Assembly (NCBI GenBank): GCA_028285305.1
Contig: JANQPV010000073.1
Location: forward strand, 27,351-91,350
From: Alphaproteobacteria bacterium
Lineage (GTDB): Bacteria; Pseudomonadota; Alphaproteobacteria; SMXP01
DNA: 64,000 nucleotides
Direction of reading: 5' to 3'
Shown here: positions 7,938 to 34,397 of the stretch, one piece after another
How the letters are laid out: each line of letters begins with the position of its first letter
How positions within the stretch are numbered: position 1 is the first letter of the stretch
Made by a program: the position numbers and the translations under genes
Notes under the pieces: generated by a model
What the model was told of the DNA's origin: nothing
Databases searched by the model: none
What the model saw: the letters and a program-made list of their open reading frames with translations, nothing else

Positions 7938-9617
7938 GTGCGCACCCGCTCAGGCACTCAGTCAAGGCTTCGGCCCACGTCCTTTCGTCCCACAGCCGCG
8001 GGGATTTGGATTATTGCTCTGGTCTTGGCCTTTCCGATCTTCGTTGTCGTGAGCGCCTTGTTCGCGCCCGCGCCAGAGGTCTGGAGCCATCTGCGGTCTA
8101 CGGTGTTGACGAGCTATGTCATCAACACTGCCGCACTCTCTCTCATGGTGGGGGCATTTGCGCTGATCCTCGGCGTAGGAACCGCTTGGCTTTCGGTTGC
8201 CTATGAGTTTCCAGGACGAAGGGTCTTTGGGTGGGCGCTTGTGCTTCCCTTGGCCTGTCCCGCCTATATCATCGCATATGTGTACACGGACTTGCTCGAA
8301 TTCTCAGGTCCTGTGCAAGCCGGTCTTCGCGCGCTCTTTGGTTGGAATGCGAACGAGTACTGGTTCCCGAATATTCGCTCGCTTTATGGGGCCGCGCTTG
8401 TTTTGGGTCTTGTCCTTTATCCCTATGTCTACCTTGCAGCGCGTGCGTCATTCTTGCGCCAATCTACCACTCTCTTTGAAGCGGCGAGAGTGTTGGGCGC
8501 GGGACCTTACACAGCTTTCGTCCGCGTCGCTCTGCCGACGGCCCGCCCCGCCATCGCTGGAGGGCTCGCATTGGTTCTGATGGAAACGGTCGCAGACTAC
8601 GGCGTTGTTGAATATTTCAGCATCCCCACATTCACGACAGGAATCTTCAGAACCTGGTTCGAAATGGGTGAACGATTGGCGGCTTTGCAACTGGCGGGCT
8701 GGCTCTTTATGGTTGTGGCAGCCATCGTGCTCTTTGAGGCGATCTCGAGGCGGGGCCAGACGAGCAATCCAGTCTCAAGGGACCGGGCGATGGAGCCCGT
8801 GCGTCTCTCGGCTGGGCGCGGCCTCCTCGCAGCACTGGTTTGTTTAGCGCCGATTGCACTTGGGTTTCTGGTGCCCATGATTTCTTTGGCGAACTATGCC
8901 TTCACGGAAGGCGATCCTTTACTCGGGCGGAGCTTTTTCGAATTCGCGAGAAACAGCTTCTTTGTAGCTGGAGCTGCGGCACTTGTTGCAACGTGTTTGG
9001 CCATGACTTTGGCGCACGGCGCCAGAGTGCAACAAAACTTCACGAGCCGCGCGGGGATCCGCTTAGCGACTTTGGGTTATGCGATGCCTGGGACCGTTTT
9101 GGCGCTTGGGGTGCTTGTTCCGTTGACGCAAGCGGATAGGGCGATCGCGGGTTTTTTTGCATCCCATACAGATTGGTCGGTCGGACTGCTGATGACCGGA
9201 ACAACGGCCGCGCTGATCTATGCGTATGTGAGCCGGTTTCTGACGGCTGCGTTCAATGTCTATGACGGGAGCTTGCAACGCATTCACAAAAATATTGATG
9301 GCGCTGCGCGGATGCTGGGAGCTTCAGGGCTAAAACAATTCAGTACCATTCACTTGCCGCTCTTGCGGGGCGCCATTCTTAGCGCCGCACTTTTGGTTTT
9401 TATCGACGTGATGAAAGAGCTTCCTGCAACGCTCCTATTGCGTCCGTTCAATTTTGAAACGCTCGCAACACGCGTCTATCGTTTGGCATCCGACGAAAAA
9501 CTTGCAGAGGCGTCGACGGCTGCCCTGACGATTGTAATTCTTGGCATGATACCGGTCATTTTGCTGACCCGTTCGATTGAACGTTCAAGAACAACCGAAA
9601 CAAGCACAAATCCCTGA
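7938..9617 (+). CDS. Fe(3+) ABC transporter permease (fused two-domain)
   Basis: An inner membrane protein of 559 residues with two homologous permease halves, each of about six transmembrane segments, as in FbpB/SfuB/HitB. The two cytoplasmic EAA-type loops that dock on the ATPase are visible as EAARVLGAGPYTAF (first half) and GAARMLGASGLKQF (second half). Translation begins at GTG with AGGA 8 bases upstream. It is divergent from its ATPase and binding-protein genes, so the transporter is encoded by two opposing units that share a control region. The tight fit with the neighbouring iron genes makes ferric iron the likely substrate. Confidence 0.92.
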   Translation: MRTRSGTQSRLRPTSFRPTAAGIWIIALVLAFPIFVVVSALFAPAPEVWSHLRSTVLTSYVINTAALSLMVGAFALILGVGTAWLSVAYEFPGRRVFGWALVLPLACPAYIIAYVYTDLLEFSGPVQAGLRALFGWNANEYWFPNIRSLYGAALVLGLVLYPYVYLAARASFLRQSTTLFEAARVLGAGPYTAFVRVALPTARPAIAGGLALVLMETVADYGVVEYFSIPTFTTGIFRTWFEMGERLAALQLAGWLFMVVAAIVLFEAISRRGQTSNPVSRDRAMEPVRLSAGRGLLAALVCLAPIALGFLVPMISLANYAFTEGDPLLGRSFFEFARNSFFVAGAAALVATCLAMTLAHGARVQQNFTSRAGIRLATLGYAMPGTVLALGVLVPLTQADRAIAGFFASHTDWSVGLLMTGTTAALIYAYVSRFLTAAFNVYDGSLQRIHKNIDGAARMLGASGLKQFSTIHLPLLRGAILSAALLVFIDVMKELPATLLLRPFNFETLATRVYRLASDEKLAEASTAALTIVILGMIPVILLTRSIERSRTTETSTNP

Positions 9618-9751
9618 AGCGCCATGCTGACAGAGGTTGATTTCGCCGGGTCGGCCCACCAAATCCCAGCAAAAGCGTAACGTAGACACGCCACGGATGC
9701 GGGTGTATGACACGCGCCTAATTTTTGGCTGCGGCCAGGCGGGTAGAAACC

Positions 9752-12067
<2,316 letters not shown>

Positions 12068-16837: not shown

Positions 16838-17374
16838 ATGGCAAAACGTCTCACTGCCGACGACTGGACAAATTTCGGATTAAGAGAACTAGCGAAAAGC
16901 GGTCCCGCCTGTCTGCGCGCGGACGTTCTTGCAAAGAGACTAGGCGTATCGAGAGGAAGCTTTTACTGGCACTTCAAGAATATTGACGACTATGAGACGA
17001 TTGTCTTGGCCGCCTGGCGGGAGCGGACCACAGAACGTGTGATCAGCGAATTGGAGTCGAAGCAAACGCCGCTCGAACGCTTAAGAGATCTCGTTGGGCG
17101 GGCCATGACCATTAACATCGATCTTGAGCGTGCGATCAGATCATGGGCGGCCAATGATCCCAAAGTCGCTAAAGTGGTTGCCGCGGTCGACCAACGTAGG
17201 CTGGACTATGTTGAAACGCTTCTGGACGAGCTAGGTGTCGATCACAGCGACGCACCCGTTCGTGCCCGAACGGTCTATTGGGCCAGTTTGGGTCGAGTTA
17301 TGATGACGTCTCAACGCCTTCGCAAGGTCTCGAGCCAAGATATCGACCAAATGGTCAAGCTTATTATTGGCTAA
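16838..17374 (+). CDS. TetR/AcrR family transcriptional regulator
   Basis: A 178-residue regulator. The N-terminal helix-turn-helix reads LRADVLAKRLGVSRGSFYWHFKNIDDYETIVLAAW (about residues 25-60), the TetR signature. The remaining helices form the ligand-binding domain, with ERLRDLVGRAM at about residue 83. It lies divergent from the small membrane protein gene with two inverted repeats between them. It probably represses both that gene and itself until a ligand binds. The gene ends tail to tail with the PHA synthase gene, overlapping it by four bases. The inducer cannot be told. Confidence 0.88.
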   Translation: MAKRLTADDWTNFGLRELAKSGPACLRADVLAKRLGVSRGSFYWHFKNIDDYETIVLAAWRERTTERVISELESKQTPLERLRDLVGRAMTINIDLERAIRSWAANDPKVAKVVAAVDQRRLDYVETLLDELGVDHSDAPVRARTVYWASLGRVMMTSQRLRKVSSQDIDQMVKLIIG

Positions 17375-19410
17375 CTCCGCACCTTTACGAACCGACCCGG
17401 CGCATCCTCGATGACCTCGAGCTCGCCGTCGCCCGGTACGCGGGCCGGCACCTTGTCGCCTGATTTTTCCGACAGCCAAGCATCCCAATCGTTCCACCAG
17501 GAGCCCGGATATTCCGTCGCGCCCTCCCACCAGTCTTCGATTGTGGCAACGTCTTCATCGTCATTGATCCAATGCTGATATTTCTTCGCATCGGGATGAT
17601 TGATGACCCCGGCGATATGGCCTGAGCCTGCCACCATAAAGCGCACCGGGCCTCCTAAGAGACCCTTTGCTTTGAACACGGAATTATAAGGCGCAATATG
17701 GTCTTCTTTTGAGGCTTGCAAGTAGACCGGAATCTTCACCTTGCTCAGATCGAGCTTGGTGTTGTCGACGACGAGCTCGCCTTGGGCCAGTTTGTTCTTC
17801 TGATAGAACTCTCTCAGATAGTAAAGGTGCAGGGCTTGGGGCATGCGCGTGGCATCGGCATTCCAGAACAGAAGGTCGAACTTCTTGGGATCCTTGCCCA
17901 GCATATAATTGTTGATGACATACGACCAGATGAGATCGTTTGCCCTGAGCATGTTAAAGGTCTGAGCCATATCTTTGCCATGGAGGAATCCGCCGGCCGC
18001 CTCCATGCGCTGCTCCATGGCTTCCAATTGCTCATTGTCCACGAAAACGAGCAAATCGCCGGCTTCGCTGAAATCCATTTGCGCCGCAAAGAAGGTGGCC
18101 GACTTGATCCGGTCGTCGCCGTGCTCGGCCATGTAGGCCAAAGTCGAACCCAACAGCGTCCCGCCAATGCAATAGCCAATCGTATTGATCTCGGCGCACC
18201 CCGTCGCGGCCTCGACAGCATTAAGGGCCTCGAAGATGCCTTCGCGCATGTAATCTTCGAAGGTTTTGGCGGCCAGCTTGTCATCGGGGTTCACCCACGA
18301 CACAACAAAGACCGTGTATCCCTTCGACGTGGCCCATCGCACAAAGGAATTCTCTTCGCGCAGGTCAAGAATGTAGTACTTGTTGATCCACGGCGGGAAA
18401 ACCAGGAGCGGCCGCTCATACACTTCCTCTGTTGTCGGATCAAATTGCAGGAGTTGGATGAGCTCGTTTTCAAAGACGACCTTTCCTGGAGCCGTCGCCA
18501 CGTTCCGGCCGATTTCAAACTGAGCCATATCGGTCTGGCTGATTTGCAGTTGGCCGCCGCCTTGCTGCAGATCATGCAACAGATTGTTGAGCCCCTTGAT
18601 CAGGTTCTCGCCCCCCGTTTCGGCCGTCTTGCGGATCACTTCCGGGTTGGTGAGAGCAAAGTTGGAGGGCGAAAACGCATCCACCATCTGCTTGGTATGA
18701 AAGGCAACTTTTCGCTTTGTCTGCTCGTCCAGGCCGTCGACGTTATCGACCGTGTTCATTAGCCAACGGGAGGTCACAAGATAAGACTGTTTGATGACAT
18801 TGAAGACATCATTCTCCGACCAGTCTTCGTGACGGAATCTCTTGTCGCCTTTATCCGGCTCAATAAATGGTTTGACCTCTTCGCCGCGCATGCGGCGCGC
18901 TTGGTTTTCCCAGAGTTTCATGTGATCGCGCCACAGCGCATATTGCGCCTCAAAGACCTTCTGGGGACTGGCAACGAACTCCCCCATCAGTTTTGCAAAC
19001 GACTCCCCTATATTGAGCGGATCCGGCATGAGCTGAGATGACAATCTGCTGTGGTCCGCATCGAACACCTGAGACATAAGGTCTTGGGTTCGTCCGATCG
19101 CCTCAATCAGCTCACTGACGTGTTCAGGGTCCTTTAATGGCTCTTGGTCGGCCTTGGGCGGCATCTTCTTCGGCTTGTTTTTTGGCGCCTTGGGTGAAGG
19201 AGCGGTCTGCGAGCGTTTGGAGCGGTTAGAGGCGCCGCTATGAACTGTTGATCGAGATGCGCTCTTTGCTTCAGGTTCCTCGGCGGACCTCTGAGTCCTT
19301 TCTGGCTTCGCCGGCGGGTCTTCCAAAACGGTTTTCGGTGGCTTGATCGACCGGCTGCTTCGACTGCGCCGCGTGCGTGGAGTTGATGTCACTTCGTTTT
19401 TTGTTGCCAT
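17371..19410 (-). CDS. phaC: Class I poly(3-hydroxyalkanoate) synthase with basic N-terminal extension
   Basis: The 679-residue enzyme polymerises hydroxyacyl-CoA into polyester granules. The lipase-like box is GYCIGGTLLGS with catalytic C414. A likely catalytic histidine lies in the GSGHIAGVINHP segment, and the class I start of the core reads LMPDPLNIGESFAKLMGEFV. Typical class I enzymes have about 590 residues with the cysteine near 319; here about 90 extra N-terminal residues rich in Lys, Arg, Ser and Pro precede the core. The ATG at 19410 is chosen because the 40 codons upstream, to 19530, look non-coding. No phaA, phaB or phasin gene is next to it. Confidence 0.93.
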   Translation of the reverse strand: MATKNEVTSTPRTRRSRSSRSIKPPKTVLEDPPAKPERTQRSAEEPEAKSASRSTVHSGASNRSKRSQTAPSPKAPKNKPKKMPPKADQEPLKDPEHVSELIEAIGRTQDLMSQVFDADHSRLSSQLMPDPLNIGESFAKLMGEFVASPQKVFEAQYALWRDHMKLWENQARRMRGEEVKPFIEPDKGDKRFRHEDWSENDVFNVIKQSYLVTSRWLMNTVDNVDGLDEQTKRKVAFHTKQMVDAFSPSNFALTNPEVIRKTAETGGENLIKGLNNLLHDLQQGGGQLQISQTDMAQFEIGRNVATAPGKVVFENELIQLLQFDPTTEEVYERPLLVFPPWINKYYILDLREENSFVRWATSKGYTVFVVSWVNPDDKLAAKTFEDYMREGIFEALNAVEAATGCAEINTIGYCIGGTLLGSTLAYMAEHGDDRIKSATFFAAQMDFSEAGDLLVFVDNEQLEAMEQRMEAAGGFLHGKDMAQTFNMLRANDLIWSYVINNYMLGKDPKKFDLLFWNADATRMPQALHLYYLREFYQKNKLAQGELVVDNTKLDLSKVKIPVYLQASKEDHIAPYNSVFKAKGLLGGPVRFMVAGSGHIAGVINHPDAKKYQHWINDDEDVATIEDWWEGATEYPGSWWNDWDAWLSEKSGDKVPARVPGDGELEVIEDAPGRFVKVRS

Positions 19411-19574
19411 AGCCTCGTTGCATCTCAGTTTCTGGAAAGTGCCGCCCCCAGAACCGCTTAAACCTATACCACACAAATCGCCAATTTGGATGATTTGCAG
19501 CGTATGTATGGACAGTGATGGCGAATTCAACTTAAGTGCTGCTTAGAAAGTAGGCGGAGTAGAAAAATATTATC

Positions 19575-26406: not shown

Positions 26407-26471
26407 GGGCGGATTTATGGGGGAATTCGGGGCCGATGTCGAGGGGCGGGCGCACATCCACCAATCGTGTC

Positions 26472-26500
26472 TTGGCGCGGATGCCTGTTTAGGTTTTAAT
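26472..26500 (+). promoter_or_regulatory. Putative promoter of the first TPR-CHAT gene
   Basis: TTGGCG (26472-26477), a 17-base spacer and TTTAAT (26495-26500). The same two boxes with the same spacing and the flanking TGTC recur before the second TPR-CHAT gene, while the spacer sequence differs, which supports real function. Confidence 0.6.
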
Positions 26501-26532
26501 TGGTCAAGGGAACACGCAAGGAAATCGGGCGG

Positions 26533-29475
26533 ATGGCTGCCGGGACGCAATCGATATGGTTGTTGGAGTGTTGCAAATGGTTGACTGCGGCGGGGTTGGT
26601 TCTGCTTAATTCGAACGCAGCACAGTCCTGTGACTCCCAGCGATTGGTTGAACTTTACACAGAGTGGTATGGGCTCTATTCCGCTGGACAATATGCCGAA
26701 AGCGAACCTTTTGCTCTTGAAAGCGTCTCCGTCGCCGTTCAAACGTGCGGCCCGGACCATCCTGAGACCGCCAGCACCCTTGGCAATCTGGCGATTGTGT
26801 ACGAAAACCAGGGCCGCTATGAGGAGGCGGAGCCCCTCTATCTACGGGCTTTGAATATCAGGGAAGACTCGCTCGGTCCGGACCAACCCGAGACTGCCGG
26901 AACACTTCAAAACCTAGCGATTTTGTATAGCAACCAGGGCCGCTATGGAGAGGCCGAACGCCTTTATCTTCGGGCCTTGAAGATCAAAGAAGATAAGCTC
27001 GGCACCAACCATCCCGATACAGCTGGAACACTTCAAAACCTGGCGATTTTGTATTGGACCCAGGGCCGCCATGGAGAGGCCGAACCCCTCTTTCTGCGGG
27101 CCTTGAAGTTCTGGGAAGACTCGCTAGGCCCGGACCATCCCGAGACCGCCCGAACCCTTGGCAACCTGGCGGCATTGTATAGAAGCCAGGGCCGCTACGG
27201 GGAGGCTGAATCCCTCTATCTGCGGGCCTTGACGATCAGAGAAGACACGCTCGGCCCGGACCATGCCGATACAGCCACGACCCTTCAAAACCTTGCGATA
27301 CTATATAAGGACCAGGGCCGGTATGGGGAGGCCGAACCCCACTATCTGCGGGCCGTGAAAATCAGGGAAGACAAGCTCGGCCCGGACCACCCTGAGACGG
27401 CCAGAGCCGTTAGCAACCTGGCGTTTTTGTATGATGATCAGGGCCGCTACGAGGAGGCGGAGCCCCTATACCTTCGGGCATTGAAGATCATGGAAGACAC
27501 GCTCGGCCCGGACCATCCCTTGACCGCCATAACCCTTCGAAACCTTGCGGGTTCGTATGAAGTTCAGGCCCGCTATGGGGAGGCAGCGGGACTCTACCAC
27601 CAAGCCCTTATCAATCTGCAGGATCGCCTATTTATGGGGGCGGACGGGGAGATTGAAGACCTGGTGCGCACCAATCTGGTGCGGGATTGGATCCTTCCTA
27701 GCATTCACCTCTTCTTAGGACGGATTCCCCTGGAGCAAAGAAGGTTTCCCGATCTTTTTGCAGCGGGTTTTGATGTCTTTCAGCGTCTTAAGACCTCCTC
27801 GGTCGGGTCAGAAATAATTCGATCAGCTCTCGTCTTGCAGGCTGAGGATCCAGATCTACGAAGTCTGGTAAAGTCGGTTGATTTCGCAAACGTTGAATTT
27901 GAGCGAATTGCGGATCTCCTGCTCACCGCAAGAGAAAAAGGCGCCAGTCCGGAAACTATCGCCGAGCTCGAAAGAGATCGAGTAATTGCGCTTGAACGCC
28001 GGGCGAAGGCACAGCAGGCACTTGAACTAAAATACCCTGATTTCGCCCTGTTCGCTCGGCCGGAACCCACGACGTTCAAGGAATTCCAGAACGATCTCCT
28101 GAGCGACGGTGAAGCTCTCATAGCCTATGCTCAGGTCGGTTATCAAGGCATGTACCTTGCCTATGTTGTCACACAAGGGGCCGTCGAGTTTGTGCCTTTT
28201 GATCTGACGGGAGAGGAGATCGAAGCGCTTGTTTCCTCGCTTCGTGCGGGAACAGCCTTGCCCTCAGGCGGGTCTTTCAGCGTGCGCGACCTAGCCAACC
28301 TGGAATTTGATCTGGGGGCGGCTCATCAGCTCTATACCGGCCTCATCGCACCGCTGGAGCCTTATCTTGTCGGCATCGATCATCTCCTGATTGTACCAGA
28401 CGGACCGCTGGAAAGCCTCTCGTTCAACTTGCTCGCAACTTCCCTTCCGCGAACGGAGGAAACCCAATCCGTAGAAGATGAGGCTGTTGAAGAATCGGAA
28501 CCTGGCGCCGAAGACCCTTTGGGGCAAGCCCGAGCTATGGCGGAGAAGGCCTGGGCATGGCTGCAAACGACCGCCGCAAGTGTTCAAGCCTCCTTGCAAA
28601 CCGACGCGGGCGCTTTTGCCCCGTACCGGGAGCCGGCATGGCTTGGCGATAAGTACGCCATCAGCACACTGCCCACAGTGGGGGCCATTGAAGCGGTTCG
28701 CAAGCTGGAAGGCTCGAGTGCGCGTCAGCCCTTGCTCGGCTTCGGCGATCCGGTGTTAGAGGGGCCGTCCAGCCGCACTGCCCAATCAGCAGGCGCGGAA
28801 GATCTCCTCACCTTGGGACTCGGCGAGTCAGCGGACGTCACCAAGGTTCGCCAATTGACCCCCATCCCTCAGACCGGAGAGCTTTTGAATGAGTTGGCAC
28901 TCGCCTTGGAAACAACTGCGGTTCATCTGTACACGGGCTCGAAAGGCACCGAGCAAGACTTAAACCTCTTGAACGAGCGCGGCCTGTTAAGGGACTATAG
29001 AACCGTTGCGTTCGCCACACATGCTCTTGTTGCTGGAGAGCTGCCCAAGCTGGGTCTCGATGAACCCGCGCTCGTTCTCACACCGCCCGCGAACGACAAC
29101 GACGTCCTCTTCTCCAACGATGGCCTTTTGCGCGCCAGTGAAGTGGTGCAGCTCAATCTGAACGCAGATTGGGTGCTGCTGACCGCGTGCAACACGGCCG
29201 CGTCCGACGGAACACTAGGGGCGGAACCACTTTCGGGTCTCGCCAAGTCCTTCTTTAAGGCCGGCTCGCGTTCTCTTCTTGTGTCTCATTGGCCCGCCGA
29301 GGCGAATGCGGCGGCAAAGCTCGTCCCCGACCTCATCAAACGCACTGCGGCCGGTGAGCCCCGAGCCGAGGCCTTGCGCCAAGCCATGATCTCCTTACGG
29401 AACGACCCGGACAATCCCCATTTCGCCCATCCGGCCCTCTGGGCGCCGTTTGTCATCGTAGGCGAGGGGGGCTAG
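26533..29475 (+). CDS. Exported TPR-CHAT (caspase-like) protease, first copy
   Basis: A 980-residue protein. Residues 1-32 form a signal peptide. C33 and C72 flank the first helical pair and could form a disulfide. Residues 76 to about 369 hold seven 42-residue tetratricopeptide repeats of kinesin-light-chain type (N-L-A-x-x-Y-x-x-Q-G-R-Y-x-E-A-E-P-L-Y-x-R-A-L). A helical linker follows, and then a C-terminal CHAT domain, a peptidase related to caspases and separase. The catalytic dyad is H830 in FATHALVAG and C886 in LLTACNTAASDG. The ATG at 26533 follows AAGGAAA; an in-frame TTG at 26500 overlaps the promoter. Its neighbours are a close paralogue and an exported hydrolase. Periplasmic or surface location is inferred from the signal peptide. 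Its substrate is unknown. Confidence 0.88.
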   Translation: MAAGTQSIWLLECCKWLTAAGLVLLNSNAAQSCDSQRLVELYTEWYGLYSAGQYAESEPFALESVSVAVQTCGPDHPETASTLGNLAIVYENQGRYEEAEPLYLRALNIREDSLGPDQPETAGTLQNLAILYSNQGRYGEAERLYLRALKIKEDKLGTNHPDTAGTLQNLAILYWTQGRHGEAEPLFLRALKFWEDSLGPDHPETARTLGNLAALYRSQGRYGEAESLYLRALTIREDTLGPDHADTATTLQNLAILYKDQGRYGEAEPHYLRAVKIREDKLGPDHPETARAVSNLAFLYDDQGRYEEAEPLYLRALKIMEDTLGPDHPLTAITLRNLAGSYEVQARYGEAAGLYHQALINLQDRLFMGADGEIEDLVRTNLVRDWILPSIHLFLGRIPLEQRRFPDLFAAGFDVFQRLKTSSVGSEIIRSALVLQAEDPDLRSLVKSVDFANVEFERIADLLLTAREKGASPETIAELERDRVIALERRAKAQQALELKYPDFALFARPEPTTFKEFQNDLLSDGEALIAYAQVGYQGMYLAYVVTQGAVEFVPFDLTGEEIEALVSSLRAGTALPSGGSFSVRDLANLEFDLGAAHQLYTGLIAPLEPYLVGIDHLLIVPDGPLESLSFNLLATSLPRTEETQSVEDEAVEESEPGAEDPLGQARAMAEKAWAWLQTTAASVQASLQTDAGAFAPYREPAWLGDKYAISTLPTVGAIEAVRKLEGSSARQPLLGFGDPVLEGPSSRTAQSAGAEDLLTLGLGESADVTKVRQLTPIPQTGELLNELALALETTAVHLYTGSKGTEQDLNLLNERGLLRDYRTVAFATHALVAGELPKLGLDEPALVLTPPANDNDVLFSNDGLLRASEVVQLNLNADWVLLTACNTAASDGTLGAEPLSGLAKSFFKAGSRSLLVSHWPAEANAAAKLVPDLIKRTAAGEPRAEALRQAMISLRNDPDNPHFAHPALWAPFVIVGEGG
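26758..27639 (+). repeat. Seven 126-bp tandem repeats encoding TPRs
   Basis: Units begin at 26758 and recur every 126 bases, each encoding one 42-residue TPR unit beginning H-P-E-T-A or a variant. The repetition lies within the gene and is protein-coding, not a CRISPR or satellite. Confidence 0.85.
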
Positions 29476-29544
29476 AGCCCGATACATAAAAGGCTTGCGG
29501 TCTTGCTTGCTTTTGATGCTTCGATTTGTGCCTCGAAATGTGTC

Positions 29545-29573
29545 TTGGCGCTGTTGCATGGATCGGTTTTAAT
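29545..29573 (+). promoter_or_regulatory. Putative promoter of the second TPR-CHAT gene
   Basis: TTGGCG (29545-29550), 17 bases, TTTAAT (29568-29573). It is the same arrangement as before the first copy, about 70 bases after that gene's stop, so the two copies can be transcribed independently. Confidence 0.55.
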
Positions 29574-29604
29574 GAGGAACCAAACGTCCCTTTGGAGCAA
29601 GACA

Positions 29605-32544
29605 ATGCCTGTTTGTCACCGCAAAAAGCGTCTTTTATTTCTGCGAGTATGGGTTGCAGCCGCCGGTCTTTCGGTGCTTTCCATGTCCGGTGCCCAGGCT
29701 TGTGACCGCGCGCAGTTTGACGCGTTCGATGCGCAATTCAGTGCGTTATACGCGGCTGGAAAGTACGCCGAGAGTGATCCGGTGGTGGTCGAGTGGCATT
29801 CCGTTGCCGAAACCACCTGCGGCCCGGATCATACCGAGACCGCTTACAGCCTCAACAAACAGGGGCTCTTGTACAAGGCCCAAGGCCGCTATGGAGAGGC
29901 CGAGCCTGTCCTGTTGCGCGCAATCGCGATCTATGAAGAGCAAGTGGGCGCTGACAATCTTCGAACGGCCAACAGTTTGAACAATCTCGCAGTTTTGTAC
30001 CGGGACCAAGGCCGTTACGCTGAAGCGGAGCCATTATACTTGCGCGCTTTGAAAATCCGGGAAGACAAGCTTGGCCCCGATCACCAAGACACGGCAACCA
30101 GCCTTAACGATCTTGCGCTGTTCTACAATGACCAAGGCCGGGACGCAGAAGCCGAGCCTCTGTTTCTGCGCTCGTTGAAGATATATGAAGAGCGTCTTGG
30201 TCCGGACCATGTCTGGACCGCAACCAGTCTCAACAATCTCGCCTCATTGTACCATAAGCAGGGTCGCTACGACGAGGCCGAGCCGCTGTACTTACGCGTC
30301 CTGAAAATCGATGAAGCCCAGCTGGGGCCAGATCATCCCGACACGGCAACGAACCTCAACGACCTGGCGCTTTTGTACTCCGACCAGGGACGCTACGCGG
30401 AGGCGGAAGCACTTTATGAGCGAGTCCTAAAGATCTACGAAACCCGTCTCGGTCCAGAACATCCCTGGACGGCGACCAGCGTCAACAATCTGGCGCTGCT
30501 CTATTGGAATCAACGCCGGGACGATGAAGCCGAACGCTGGTACCGGCGGGCCTTGAGTATTCGGGAAAAGAGCCTTGGTCCCGACCACCCGGACACCGCT
30601 GCGTCTTTACGAAATTTGGCACTTATGTTCAGTGACGACGGGCGTTTCGGCGAAGCAGCCAATCTTTACACGAGAGCGCTCACCAATCTGGAAAGCCTCC
30701 TGTTTGGCGGCGAGAATGGTGAAATTGAAGATCTTGTGCGCTCCAACTTGGTGCGGGATTATATTCTTCCAAGCGTCCATCACTTGGGCACGGTCAGAGG
30801 CGCCGGTGGAGATCCGTTCCCTGAACTCACATCCGTCAGTTTCAACGTTTGGCAGCGTTTGAAAGTGTCTTCGGTCGCCTCCGAACTGGCCCGAGCGGCG
30901 AGCGTGCTTCAGTTGGACGATGCAGAATTGCAAGCGGCCGTAAAGGCTCTCGATGAAGCCCAAAAAGAATTTGCGCTGTTCTCCGAACTCCTGGGGCAGC
31001 AACGCCAAGCCGGCGCCACGGCCGATCGGATTGCGGCCCTCGAACGCCAGCGCGACGCCGCGTTGACCAAAAGACAGCAAGCCCAAGCAGCGCTTGAGCG
31101 CACAGACGAGGACTTTGCGCGCTTTGCGCGGCCCGAGCCCACACCGGTGAGCACACTGCAAAACGCATTGCTGGAAGACGGCGAAGCCCTGATCGCTTTT
31201 GCCCAACTCGGCCCAAGTGACGGCTACTTGGCTTACGTCGTTACCCAGACCGAGGCGCGCTTTGTTGCCCTGTCACCCTCTGGCAAAGAGGTGGAAGATC
31301 TTGTGTCGTCCTTAAGGCAAGGGACGGCCCTGCCGTCGGGCAGCGCGTTCGGCGTGGACGATTTGGCCGATCTTGAGTTCGATGTTCAAAGTGCACACGA
31401 ACTGTATCGTCTCCTATTTGAGCCGCTGGAGCCCTATATCTCCGGCATCGAGCACTTGCTGATTGTCCCTGATGGACCGCTGGAAAGTTTGTCCTTCGGG
31501 CTACTTGCGACATCTCTACCGGAAACAGGGCAAACGACGGAAACCGGGGGGCAAGAGCCGGAAACGGAGTCTGAGCCCGCCGATGCGCTCGGCCAGGCGC
31601 AAGCAATGGCCCAAGACGCCTGGGCTTGGACACAAAAAACGTTCGGCGAATTGCAAGCCCAGTTCAGCAGCAATGCAGGTGTGTTCGCCGGCTATCGGGA
31701 CACGGAGTGGTTGGCGGATCGATATGCCATCAGTGTGCTGCCCACGGTGGGCTCCCTTGAGGCGGTGCGAAAGTTGGAGCGCTCTTCCGGTAAGTGGCCC
31801 CTTCTGGGCTTTGGGGATCCAGCATTGGAAGGAACGGGCGCCCCGGCCGAGACTTCGGGCGGTGCCGAAGACTTGCTCACCCTCGGCCCGGGACGGGCGG
31901 CGGACATCACCAGAGTTCGCCAACTGACGCCCATTCCTCAGACCGGGCGACTGTTAACCGATCTCGCTCTCGCGCTGAAGACGCCGGCCGTTCATCTGTA
32001 TACGGGCGAAACCGGAACCGAGCAGGATTTGAACCTCCTCAACGAAAGAGGTTTGTTGCGGGACTATCGCACAATCGCTTTTGCGACCCATGCGTTGATC
32101 GCCGGGGAACTGCCGAAACTCGGTCTTGAGGAGCCGGCCCTTGTTCTCACGCCGCCGGCAGGCGACAGCGAAGTGCTGTTCTCCAACGATGGGCTCTTGC
32201 GGGCCAGCGAAGTGGTCCAGCTCAACCTCAACGCGGATTGGGTGTTGCTCACCGCCTGCAACACGGCGGCTTCGGACGGCACCCTTGGCGCGGAGCCCTT
32301 GTCGGGCCTTGCCAAGTCGTTCTTTAAGGCGGGCTCGCGTTCTTTGCTTGTGTCCCATTGGCCCGCCGAGGCAAGTGCCGCGTCCAAGCTTGTGCCCGAT
32401 CTCATCAAACGCACCGCGGCAGGCGAGCCCCGGGCCGAAGCCTTGCGCCAAGCCATGATCTCTTTGCGGAACGATCCGGACAATCCCCATTTCGCCCATC
32501 CGGCCCTGTGGGCGCCGTTTGTCATTGTCGGCGAGGGCGGCTAG
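29605..32544 (+). CDS. Exported TPR-CHAT (caspase-like) protease, second copy
   Basis: A 979-residue paralogue of the preceding gene with the same plan: signal peptide 1-32 (MPVCHRKKRL start), C33 and C72 at identical positions, seven 42-residue TPRs from residue 76, a helical linker and a CHAT domain with H829 (FATHALIAG) and C885 (LLTACNTAASDG). The repeats differ clearly from those of the first copy, whereas roughly the last 115 residues differ at only two positions. The ATG at 29605 follows GGAG with 9 bases between; in-frame starts at 29503 (TTG) and 29572 are less likely. The exported hydrolase gene follows after 29 bases and is probably co-transcribed. Substrate unknown. Confidence 0.88.
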   Translation: MPVCHRKKRLLFLRVWVAAAGLSVLSMSGAQACDRAQFDAFDAQFSALYAAGKYAESDPVVVEWHSVAETTCGPDHTETAYSLNKQGLLYKAQGRYGEAEPVLLRAIAIYEEQVGADNLRTANSLNNLAVLYRDQGRYAEAEPLYLRALKIREDKLGPDHQDTATSLNDLALFYNDQGRDAEAEPLFLRSLKIYEERLGPDHVWTATSLNNLASLYHKQGRYDEAEPLYLRVLKIDEAQLGPDHPDTATNLNDLALLYSDQGRYAEAEALYERVLKIYETRLGPEHPWTATSVNNLALLYWNQRRDDEAERWYRRALSIREKSLGPDHPDTAASLRNLALMFSDDGRFGEAANLYTRALTNLESLLFGGENGEIEDLVRSNLVRDYILPSVHHLGTVRGAGGDPFPELTSVSFNVWQRLKVSSVASELARAASVLQLDDAELQAAVKALDEAQKEFALFSELLGQQRQAGATADRIAALERQRDAALTKRQQAQAALERTDEDFARFARPEPTPVSTLQNALLEDGEALIAFAQLGPSDGYLAYVVTQTEARFVALSPSGKEVEDLVSSLRQGTALPSGSAFGVDDLADLEFDVQSAHELYRLLFEPLEPYISGIEHLLIVPDGPLESLSFGLLATSLPETGQTTETGGQEPETESEPADALGQAQAMAQDAWAWTQKTFGELQAQFSSNAGVFAGYRDTEWLADRYAISVLPTVGSLEAVRKLERSSGKWPLLGFGDPALEGTGAPAETSGGAEDLLTLGPGRAADITRVRQLTPIPQTGRLLTDLALALKTPAVHLYTGETGTEQDLNLLNERGLLRDYRTIAFATHALIAGELPKLGLEEPALVLTPPAGDSEVLFSNDGLLRASEVVQLNLNADWVLLTACNTAASDGTLGAEPLSGLAKSFFKAGSRSLLVSHWPAEASAASKLVPDLIKRTAAGEPRAEALRQAMISLRNDPDNPHFAHPALWAPFVIVGEGG
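29830..30711 (+). repeat. Seven 126-bp tandem repeats encoding TPRs
   Basis: Units start at 29830 and recur every 126 bases. They encode the TPR array of the second CHAT protein, with H-x-x-T-A at each unit start. Confidence 0.85.
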
Positions 32545-32573
32545 AGTTGGTCTCAGGGAAAGGGAGTTTGAAA

Positions 32574-34397
32574 ATGGTTTTAAAAGGTGTTTCCCTGAGA
32601 GTGATGTCTTGGTCGCTTGCGCTCTGCTTACTCGCAACGAGTACATGGGCAAGTCCTGACCTGATTAGAAAACTGGGTGAGGCCAGTGCCGCAGGTGACG
32701 TCCCGGCCTTGACCAGCCTGGCGGACGATATCATGGCGACGAATGCCGCGTCCCTCGAATTGCCCCTTGAGCTTTTTGAAGATCTGAAATCCGATTTGGC
32801 CGAAAAGCTCAGCGCTGAAGGCAACCAGGACAAAGCGGCCGAACTCTTGGAATCCGTTCTGCGAGACCAGGAGGAACGGGTTGGGCCGAACGCCTTTGAG
32901 TTGGTGGACACGCTCGACAAGCTCGCCGCCGTTGAACGTTTGCGGGGAAACACCGAGCGCGCCAACGCGCTTGAGTTCCGGGCCTTTGAAAACAGCCGCC
33001 GCAGCCTGGGCGATGGACATCCCACACTTAAGCCGCGCCTTGAGGCGTTGGCGGATCATTATCGGCAGCCCCCGCACGGTGTGGTCGAAGAATCCGGCGA
33101 GATCCCGGAAGAGCGGGCCGAAGTCGAAGAGGCGTTGGGCGAATTCGAAACAGATAAAGAAGACGATACGCTTGTGACTCTCGGCGGCGGATCCGAGCCC
33201 CGCGCCCGCGACACCACCCATGAAGTCGTCACAGTCTATTACGGAACCCACCGTAAGCGCACCGGCTCCAACAACATCAATTCTTTCTATGGCGCCGCCC
33301 GAAGCCGGACGATGGAGTACGGCACGGTGACCGTCAGTGTGCCGACCCGGGGCGAACTGGGCACCATCAGGCGACCAGGTATATGGCGCCAAGTAGTGCG
33401 GATCGACCCCGATGTCACAAAGCACGTTTTTCTGGAAAAGATTGATGTCGCCACCACGCGGGCGCGCTTTCTGCGCAGTCTCAGGCGGGACATCGCGGAC
33501 TCTGAGCTCAAAGAAATGTTCGTTTTTGTTCACGGCTTTAACGTAACGTTTCGCGGCGCTGTGGAGCGCACAGCCAAGCTCGCGGTCGATCTTGAACTGG
33601 ACGGGGCGCCGGTTCTCTACAGCTGGCCGTCAAACGGCAGTCTTTTGGGCTATATCTCCGACGGCGAGGAGCTCACCGCGCCCCTTAAAAAGCAGCTCAA
33701 AGACTTTCTTTTCGACCTGGCCATCCGGTCTGGTGCGGAGCGTGTGCACATCATCGCCCATTCTATGGGCAATCGTTATTTGATGGACGCCCTGGAAGCC
33801 ATCTCTGCGCCCGATCCAAACCGTGAGCCAATCTTTGACGAAATTATCTACGCTTCGCCTGATCTAGATGCGGAGGACTTTGCCGCCAGAGCGCCCGGCG
33901 TGGCCCATTTGGCGGACCGCTCAACGCTCTATGCCTCCGGCGTTGATAAGGCGCTTTTTGTATCGGGGTTGCTCTCCAACTATGCCCGGGCCGGAAACAT
34001 CAAACCGCCCCTCGTCGCCAAGCCTCTCGAAACCGTCGATACCACCAAGTCGACAGGCGGCCTCAGGATCATGGATCTGGGGGATGGCGGCCATAACGAT
34101 TTTGCCGGCACGGCTTTGCAGGACTTTCGCTCGATCATCTGGCTGAGCCTTGACCCCCAAAAGCGCTGTATCCTGAGCGAACAGCCGCAGCCGGACGGCG
34201 TTGTTTGGGTGTTCGGCACCGCCCGCTGCGATGCCAAGGCCTATGAGCGCGCTGTCGTTTATGCCCGCCGCAAAAAGTATGATTTTGACGCCGCCATCGC
34301 CGACCTCAATGAGGCGATTGCGACGCTCAGATCCTCCGGCGACGATCAAGGCGCCGCCGACCTGGAAAAGGTGAAGGCGATCGTTGCTACGTTTTAG
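32574..34397 (+). CDS. Exported DUF900-type alpha/beta hydrolase with N-terminal helical domain
   Basis: A 607-residue protein with a signal peptide (cleavage near STWA, residue 26). A helical TPR-like region spans about 27-165 and contains GNQDKAAELLESVLRDQE and GNTERANALEFRAFENSRRSLGDGHP. A strongly acidic linker spans about 166-215. From about 216 comes a DUF900-type alpha/beta hydrolase domain: YYGTHRKRTG, FVFVHGFNVTF (H320), nucleophile S397 in IIAHSMGNRY, acid in ASPDLDAEDF and H507 in GDGGHNDF. A further helical tail ends the protein. GGGAG precedes the ATG. It lies 29 bases after the second TPR-CHAT gene, and the two helical N-termini are of related type, which suggests partners. The natural substrate (lipid, ester or peptide) is unknown. 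Confidence 0.85.
   Translation: MVLKGVSLRVMSWSLALCLLATSTWASPDLIRKLGEASAAGDVPALTSLADDIMATNAASLELPLELFEDLKSDLAEKLSAEGNQDKAAELLESVLRDQEERVGPNAFELVDTLDKLAAVERLRGNTERANALEFRAFENSRRSLGDGHPTLKPRLEALADHYRQPPHGVVEESGEIPEERAEVEEALGEFETDKEDDTLVTLGGGSEPRARDTTHEVVTVYYGTHRKRTGSNNINSFYGAARSRTMEYGTVTVSVPTRGELGTIRRPGIWRQVVRIDPDVTKHVFLEKIDVATTRARFLRSLRRDIADSELKEMFVFVHGFNVTFRGAVERTAKLAVDLELDGAPVLYSWPSNGSLLGYISDGEELTAPLKKQLKDFLFDLAIRSGAERVHIIAHSMGNRYLMDALEAISAPDPNREPIFDEIIYASPDLDAEDFAARAPGVAHLADRSTLYASGVDKALFVSGLLSNYARAGNIKPPLVAKPLETVDTTKSTGGLRIMDLGDGGHNDFAGTALQDFRSIIWLSLDPQKRCILSEQPQPDGVVWVFGTARCDAKAYERAVVYARRKKYDFDAAIADLNEAIATLRSSGDDQGAADLEKVKAIVATF

Follow-up and report, generated by a model that had tools for sequence, protein, structure and literature searches.

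The window analysed here, a 64,000-nucleotide stretch of an alphaproteobacterial genome (assembly GCA_028285305.1, contig JANQPV010000073.1, positions 27,351 to 91,350), encodes two consecutive TPR-CHAT proteins (CHAT1 and CHAT2), followed by a TPR-DUF900 alpha/beta serine hydrolase. We tentatively propose, at somewhat less than an even chance, that these proteases and the hydrolase form a periplasmic proteolytic switch that gates the hydrolase. The proposal builds on the genes themselves, on conserved active-site residues and on a recurrent neighbourhood, together with predicted export and a predicted Csx29/separase-like fold. In such a switch, the TPR arms of CHAT1 and CHAT2 would bind a trigger, the CHAT proteases would then cut, and the hydrolase would be released or activated. 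The two TPR arms may read two triggers, and the near-identical catalytic segments could make the same cut. The gated effector would be the hydrolase, which has a lipase-like predicted fold, a disordered linker and, ahead of the catalytic His, a loop modelled with low confidence; in relatives, predicted exported caspases seem to supply further steps, and a patatin phospholipase could replace the hydrolase as effector. The purpose, which is the weakest step, may lie in answering damage to the envelope or an attack on it, the freed enzyme hydrolysing lipid or another envelope ester.

Recurrence of the neighbourhood on chromosomes and plasmids

Species genomes were scanned with an alignment of the hydrolase, and the best 80 of at least 274 confirmed relatives were taken as hydrolase loci; their neighbours were scored with purpose-built profiles (55 bits or more), and 16 of the 80 loci, shorter than 9 kb, could hide further partners. 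CHAT genes were found at 14 loci and Peptidase_C14 (caspase) genes at 19, with both at 12 and either at 21. CHAT lay within 10 kb of the hydrolase in Caulobacterales, Maricaulaceae, Rhodobacterales, Martelella, SAR324 and Winogradskyella, and on Sulfitobacter plasmids. A first, sequence-only reading of this DNA was to be given up if the adjacency ended with close relatives; on this point it survives, because CHAT lies at most 10 kb from the hydrolase in lineages ranging from Caulobacterales to SAR324 and Winogradskyella, and the adjacency is real but patchy. The order is CHAT-hydrolase-CHAT in Glycocaulis and Oceanicaulis, with CHATs on both sides in SAR324 as well; it is caspase(-), hydrolase(+), CHAT(+) in Martelella and Aliiruegeria, and hydrolase, caspase, CHAT on one strand in Winogradskyella.

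A whole-genome Pfam search of 49 genomes, drawn from the first 50 loci, gave 133 CHAT matches, and CHAT lay within 10 kb of the hydrolase in eight of these genomes, where chance would give 0.61 (P about 3e-8 on the assumption of independence). Grouped by descent, the eight come to about four lineages, a number that still exceeds the expectation, and seven of the eight genomes carry one or two CHAT matches in all. On an 87-row hydrolase tree built by a quick method, CHAT adjacency, seen in 18 rows, must have changed at least 10 times, and well-supported branches force 7 of these changes. A link confined to the long TPR-DUF900 hydrolases was considered and rejected, as it is only concentrated there and lower-scoring loci also carry the proteases: CHAT or C14 occurred at 13 of 33 loci with a hydrolase score of 550 or more, at 1 of 18 scoring 400-550 and at 7 of 29 scoring below 400 (five Winogradskyella-type and two Sulfurovum).

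Peptidase_C14 caspases are a third recurrent partner of the CHAT-hydrolase neighbourhoods. The C14 profile was built from 11 cluster members, all hydrolase neighbours, of which only six were checked with Pfam (all C14). The six neighbours sent to Pfam (loci L014, L017, L030, L046, L047 and L061) and two further genes of L060 all proved to be C14; a protein of the same cluster as the profile members (L030, 581-5185) matched WD40 models, not C14. The C14 expectation in the 49-genome test, 1.06, is too low, because the genome search missed C14 genes that the purpose-built profile had found (L017, L032), and its P value is not relied on.

Other genes recur in these settings. A frame of 740-790 codons is kept next to the caspase in Aliiruegeria and Martelella (L030, 5002-7218; L047, 4784-7150), the L047 copy having no Pfam match. 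Large WD40 proteins stand beside CHAT-caspase-hydrolase sets (L110, 10261-14427; the L030 protein named above; L109, 12386-16804); that of L109 also bears a caspase domain, and those of L109 and L110 score a possible signal peptide.

The hydrolase was found in 14 plasmid records and a CHAT domain in 84, and six of each were opened. The plasmid of Sulfitobacter sp. THAF37 carries a row of CHAT-TPR, caspase, alpha/beta hydrolase, ion channel and second caspase genes, and that of Sulfitobacter sp. SK012 carries a CHAT, a caspase, a hydrolase and a WD40 protein; Pfam confirmed the CHAT, both C14 and DUF900 in THAF37 and the CHAT in SK012. On the two Paraburkholderia, the Klebsiella and the Nostoc plasmids opened, no annotated CHAT or caspase lay near the hydrolase. 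On the Nostoc plasmid (L114, 8032-18966), the gene for a 646-aa DUF900 protein has genes for an ATPase and a TIR protein downstream of it. A search for phage carriage of the hydrolase gave no match.

Among the CHAT records, the plasmid of Pseudosulfitobacter sp. DSM 107133 holds two caspases, trypsin-like and serine proteases, a sensor kinase pair, a lipoprotein of the patatin type and a CHAT in one stretch (L121; NZ_CP085162, 3915-20037). Most of these proteins have predicted export signals, and a CcdAB pair comes next. A phospholipase (patatin) thus appears to take the place of the hydrolase on this plasmid. An Azospirillum plasmid has two tandem CHATs and a caspase, neither a caspase nor such a hydrolase is annotated near the CHAT of an Agrobacterium vitis plasmid, and a Niveispirillum record with CHAT is unannotated. 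On two Sphingobium plasmids (L119, L120) CHAT precedes ShlB/FhaC two-partner secretion genes, with CHASE2 annotated in L120, and this is a second recurrent setting of CHAT. In PADLOC, plasmid caspases matched the caspase model (E 5e-21 and 1e-21), the plasmid trypsin-like protein matched a retron-protease model, the patatin weakly matched a phospholipase effector model and the CHAT of L121 weakly matched BovA (E 8.7e-4).

Domains, paralog divergence and predicted export

By profile and catalytic dyad, CHAT1 and CHAT2 belong to the CHAT family, and proteolytic activity is predicted for them. The CHAT domain (PF12770) was matched at E 3.7e-44 and 151.7 bits in CHAT1 and at E 3.4e-43 and 148.6 bits in CHAT2 (Pfam cut-off 24), together with seven and six TPR_12 stretches, respectively, and the same Pfam TPR types in both. 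In the CHAT2 model, seven TPR-like helix pairs (counted by hand) at residues 77-366 follow a first pair at 35-72, and the TPRs are of the kinesin-light-chain (KLC) type. The dyad residues H829 and C885 (CHAT2 numbering) are kept in 40 of 40 aligned CHAT rows. The two consecutive genes with TPR arrays, a CHAT domain and an intact His/Cys dyad, as described in the sequence-only reading, are thereby borne out. The predicted structure of CHAT2 matches Csx29 and separase, and a PDB comparison by its sequence gave TPR proteins only. A conserved N-terminal disulfide of the CHAT family, C33/C72, was also considered and rejected: both window CHATs have the two cysteines, but they are hardly shared, C33 occurring in 3 and C72 in 2 of the 40 rows.

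Identity between the two CHAT proteins is 60% over the TPRs, 58% over the middle part and 94% at residues 801-975, a segment in which the other 38 alignment rows are 43-65% identical to CHAT2. The pair is near synonymous saturation, with identical four-fold sites at a fraction of 0.25-0.52 in the first nine blocks compared. Over CHAT1 794-893 only 18 of 52 four-fold sites are identical, which rules out gene conversion behind the alike catalytic segments there and argues that constraint, not recency, keeps them alike. Strong selection on the same catalytic surface in both copies, with freer TPR arms, suggests the same substrate under different triggers, so that the pair probably represents two sensors with one cut.

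In the hydrolase, DUF900 (PF05990) was matched at E 2.9e-40 and 138.6 bits (Pfam cut-off 20.5), and the TPR match was under its own Pfam cut-off. What had been read from the sequence as a helical domain is a TPR domain of the KLC type. In the family alignment, S397, D430 and D458 are present in 120 of 120 proteins and H507 in 119 of 120; D458, picked from the fold order, is taken by us to be the catalytic acid. The predicted structure places a disordered linker between the TPR and catalytic domains and models the loop before H507 weakly, and these two features hint at gating of the predicted lipase-like enzyme. That loop is the longest among 87 rows (17 residues against a median of 10). A long loop as a trait of CHAT-adjacent hydrolases was rejected, as the other CHAT-adjacent proteins of the 87 rows do not have it.

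Export was scored by a simple rule (charged start, hydrophobic stretch, and cleavage or lipobox motif) on the best 120 hits of each family, with those of the window included, counting only entries that begin with M and, for the CHATs, only those longer than 700 aa. The rule predicted a signal peptide or lipoprotein signal in 103 of 116 hydrolases and in 76 of 103 long TPR-CHATs, but in only 2 of 219 segments taken from inside the same proteins; CHAT2 (cut near residue 30) and the window hydrolase both score positive for a signal peptide. Scored from their deposited start codons, all eight CHAT, caspase, hydrolase and WD40 genes on the Sulfitobacter plasmids were positive (WD40 by a weaker rule), whereas none of five other genes of the two plasmids was, the ion channel inside the THAF37 row included. 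On the Pseudosulfitobacter plasmid, both caspases, the CHAT and three unnamed genes were signal-positive, the serine protease was so by the weaker rule, the patatin scored as a lipoprotein and the annotated trypsin-like gene was negative. A permissive test that allowed any ATG or GTG start (17 of 22 adjacent CHATs, 22 of 27 C14, 52 of 200 control open reading frames) is weak and not relied on.

Cysteine patterns mostly point in the same direction. The C532/C552 pair occurs in 119 of 120 hydrolases, at both ends of a predicted hairpin, and may form a disulfide; among 120 CHATs, 85 have a single Cys beyond residue 60, which is presumably the catalytic residue. For comparison, five cytoplasmic neighbours in the window have 24 Cys in 2365 residues. 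At the level of the protein families, the export claimed in the sequence-only reading is thus upheld by prediction.

Alternative explanations and related systems

Several results weigh against the proteolytic switch. Neither CHAT nor C14 is present at 59 of the 80 hydrolase loci, no Peptidase_C14 was found in the source genome, and no CHAT was found in four other genomes examined of its order. In a class-wide sample of 385 genomes, DUF900 occurs in 61, CHAT in 79 and both in 21, and the two families lie within 10 kb in only two of these 21 (that of the window and G327). A further 19 class-sample DUF900 loci, long and short, four of them stretches shorter than 13 kb, gave no CHAT and one C14 (L088), leaving uncounted L107, which had been chosen for its CHAT and C14 genes; DUF900 at large as a partner of CHAT, a separate candidate, is unsupported by the class sample and by these loci and was rejected. 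All three proteins of the window had been read as carrying signal peptides, and CHAT1 fails the rule that the other two pass: it has only a weak possible signal peptide, the mean of its hydrophobic stretch LTAAGLVLL being just under the cut-off (by hand), so its predicted export rests mainly on its relatives. The C532/C552 pair is absent in 6 of 18 CHAT-adjacent hydrolases (SAR324, Winogradskyella and G327), and each window CHAT has a second Cys after residue 60. The linker sequence is not conserved among the hydrolases, nor is the linker longer in CHAT-adjacent ones (median 34 residues, n=18, against 45 with C14 only, n=8, and 38 with neither protease, n=61); for these reasons a cleavage site cannot be named, and no conserved one was found in the 87-row alignment. 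Over the final 87 codons, CHAT1 and CHAT2 agree at 32 of 53 four-fold sites, and some recent gene conversion is possible there. Finally, the trio sits among housekeeping and efflux genes, with no evident defence island.

A more dramatic reading, possible but on balance doubtful, is a periplasmic caspase-type execution cascade, in which exported TPR-CHAT sensors and caspases would cut and unleash an exported lipid-attacking effector and dismantle the envelope on attack; this effector would be the TPR-DUF900 hydrolase or the patatin lipoprotein, and the cascade would be complement- or gasdermin-like, on chromosomes and plasmids across phyla. Less probable than the proposed switch, although still a serious alternative, is that the enzymes serve one envelope process without the hydrolase being a CHAT substrate, being co-scaffolded through like TPRs for envelope turnover. 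The KLC-type TPRs on both CHAT2 and the hydrolase, and the Pfam TPR types that CHAT1 shares with CHAT2, would suit this arrangement, as would the lack of a conserved linker site and the many hydrolases without CHAT or C14 nearby, including those of Hyphomonas, which are among the nearer relatives and have neither protease nearby. However, the near-identical catalytic segment of the duplicated CHATs fits a specific shared substrate, and the caspases, another family of specific endopeptidases, also gather at the same hydrolase.

It is rather unlikely that CHAT has some other envelope or surface protein to activate or mature and that the hydrolase became its neighbour through co-transfer or co-regulation. 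CHAT relatives in settings without an annotated hydrolase of this kind (Sphingobium with CHASE2 and ShlB/FhaC, Azospirillum with tandem CHATs and a caspase) and the 59 hydrolase loci with neither protease speak for such a substrate, but co-transfer alone hardly explains a repeated, differently oriented adjacency in separate branches. Ordinary secreted degradative enzymes, that is, proteases and an esterase feeding on external polymers, seem very improbable, given the TPR arms on all three proteins and the CHAT/separase and caspase folds, which are those of specific processing proteases and not of bulk degraders. Least probable of all is a chance adjacency in the window, with the pattern elsewhere produced by genomes rich in both families: the two of 21 class-sample genomes would allow it, but the excess in the 49-genome test holds over about four lineages, seven of the eight CHAT-adjacent genomes are poor in CHAT, and both CHAT genes of the source genome are at this locus.

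Activation of an effector by a clan CD (caspase-fold) protease encoded alongside it is a theme in bacterial immunity. The best-supported reading is that the logic of the proposed switch may be comparable to that of Craspase and of canu, in another compartment and with another effector. Csx29, the protease of the type III-E CRISPR Craspase, is cytosolic and RNA-guided; the CHAT2 model matches it, whereas in the window export is predicted and the neighbour is a hydrolase. A scan of eight flanking proteins found no Cas family, and so neither Cas7-11/gRAMP nor Csx30, although Cas7-11 was not sought elsewhere in the genome, and no CRISPR-like array appeared among the 20 listed of 33 direct-repeat families at 20-45 kb. 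Separase, whose fold the CHAT2 model also matches, cuts cohesin and differs in being eukaryotic and intracellular. CHAT proteases also act in defence in CHAT-gasdermin pairs and in Borvo (BovA); one related plasmid CHAT weakly matches BovA, whereas CHAT1 and CHAT2 have no PADLOC matches beyond generic TPR models. The scanned neighbours of CHAT have Pfam identities other than gasdermin, no search having been aimed at gasdermin models, and PADLOC gave no system-specific match for the trio, the hydrolase matching no model at all.

In canu loci, caspase-activated pro-nucleases are proenzyme effectors activated by the partner protease (PMC12799240). The effector active sites of canu and of the Hachiman/AVAST pro-nucleases are likely blocked by disordered insertions, and TPRs occur in variable loci (PMC12799240). 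The likeness would be one of working mode only: a caspase-family protease beside a hydrolytic effector there, CHAT beside a serine hydrolase here, and a caspase beside the hydrolase in relatives. The difference is that canu effectors are nucleases acting on DNA, whereas here the putative effector is not an MBL nuclease, export is predicted and the source genome has no C14; the term 'periplasm' does not occur in the text of the canu paper (PMC12799240). For prokaryotic metacaspase operons, N-terminal helices that are likely signal peptides and various hydrolases as operon neighbours have been described (PMC3501461), both of which resemble the present case, but the CHAT-caspase-DUF900 association is not described in the accessible part of that paper. 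No description of this association was found in the open-licence literature, preprints not being covered.

The systems compared (Craspase, gasdermin pairs, canu) are intracellular, and the recurrent CHAT/caspase set, with its predicted export, suggests that such logic also operates in the envelope. This would offer a testable function for the DUF900 'alpha/beta hydrolase of unknown function' and for many TPR-CHATs with export signals, and the plasmid versions, one with a patatin in place of the hydrolase, make the effector idea directly testable.

Locus layout and flanking genes

Features of the trio locus (positions in the window; parts of the hydrolase in residues)
Feature	Positions	Strand	Details
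CHAT1 TPR-CHAT gene	26533-29475	+	980 aa, ATG start; alternative TTG at 26500 possible
CHAT2 TPR-CHAT gene	29605-32544	+	979 aa, ATG start
TPR-DUF900 alpha/beta serine hydrolase gene	32574-34397	+	607 aa
Parts of the hydrolase			signal peptide (predicted); KLC-type TPR ~25-190; flexible linker ~190-215; serine hydrolase domain; cysteine pair C532/C552
Promoter-like TTGGCG-N17-TTTAAT, first copy	26472-26500	+	32 nt before CHAT1 start codon; putative function
Promoter-like TTGGCG-N17-TTTAAT, second copy	29545-29573	+	31 nt before CHAT2 start codon; putative function

The gaps between the genes are 129 nt (CHAT1-CHAT2) and 29 nt (CHAT2-hydrolase); the coordinates, the gene order and the 29-base gap given in the sequence-only reading agree with ours, and its start coordinate, 26472, is the TTGGCG that opens the first promoter-like element. 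The surroundings of the two elements (26458-26500 and 29531-29573) are 77% identical over 43 nt in the direct-repeat search. Because the near-identical elements stand at nearly equal distances from the start codons, CHAT1 and CHAT2 probably share the same kind of promoter and a common regulation, and the hydrolase gene would follow on from CHAT2. A scan for consensus promoters and terminators gave no excess over shuffled sequence and did not list the copy before CHAT1, its rule calling for A as the second base of the second hexamer.

Eight flanking proteins were scanned, and the genes around the trio encode an aminotransferase, homoserine dehydrogenase, GlpX, RecJ, an RND efflux pair, an oxidoreductase and a transporter, with another alpha/beta hydrolase gene on the opposite strand just upstream of the trio. 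No foreign-DNA signature was seen in its GC content (0.57-0.59 against 0.53-0.59 elsewhere in the window). The source genome has two CHAT genes and two DUF900 genes, and the second of the latter is an 850-codon frame at 8168-10717 of locus L108 (contig C9, 42500-62400). The polyhydroxyalkanoate synthase gene PhaC lies 7 kb from the trio (17371-19530, minus strand), and the top-listed hydrolase fold for the window hydrolase is the PHB depolymerase PhaZ7; the proximity of PhaC is probably a coincidence.
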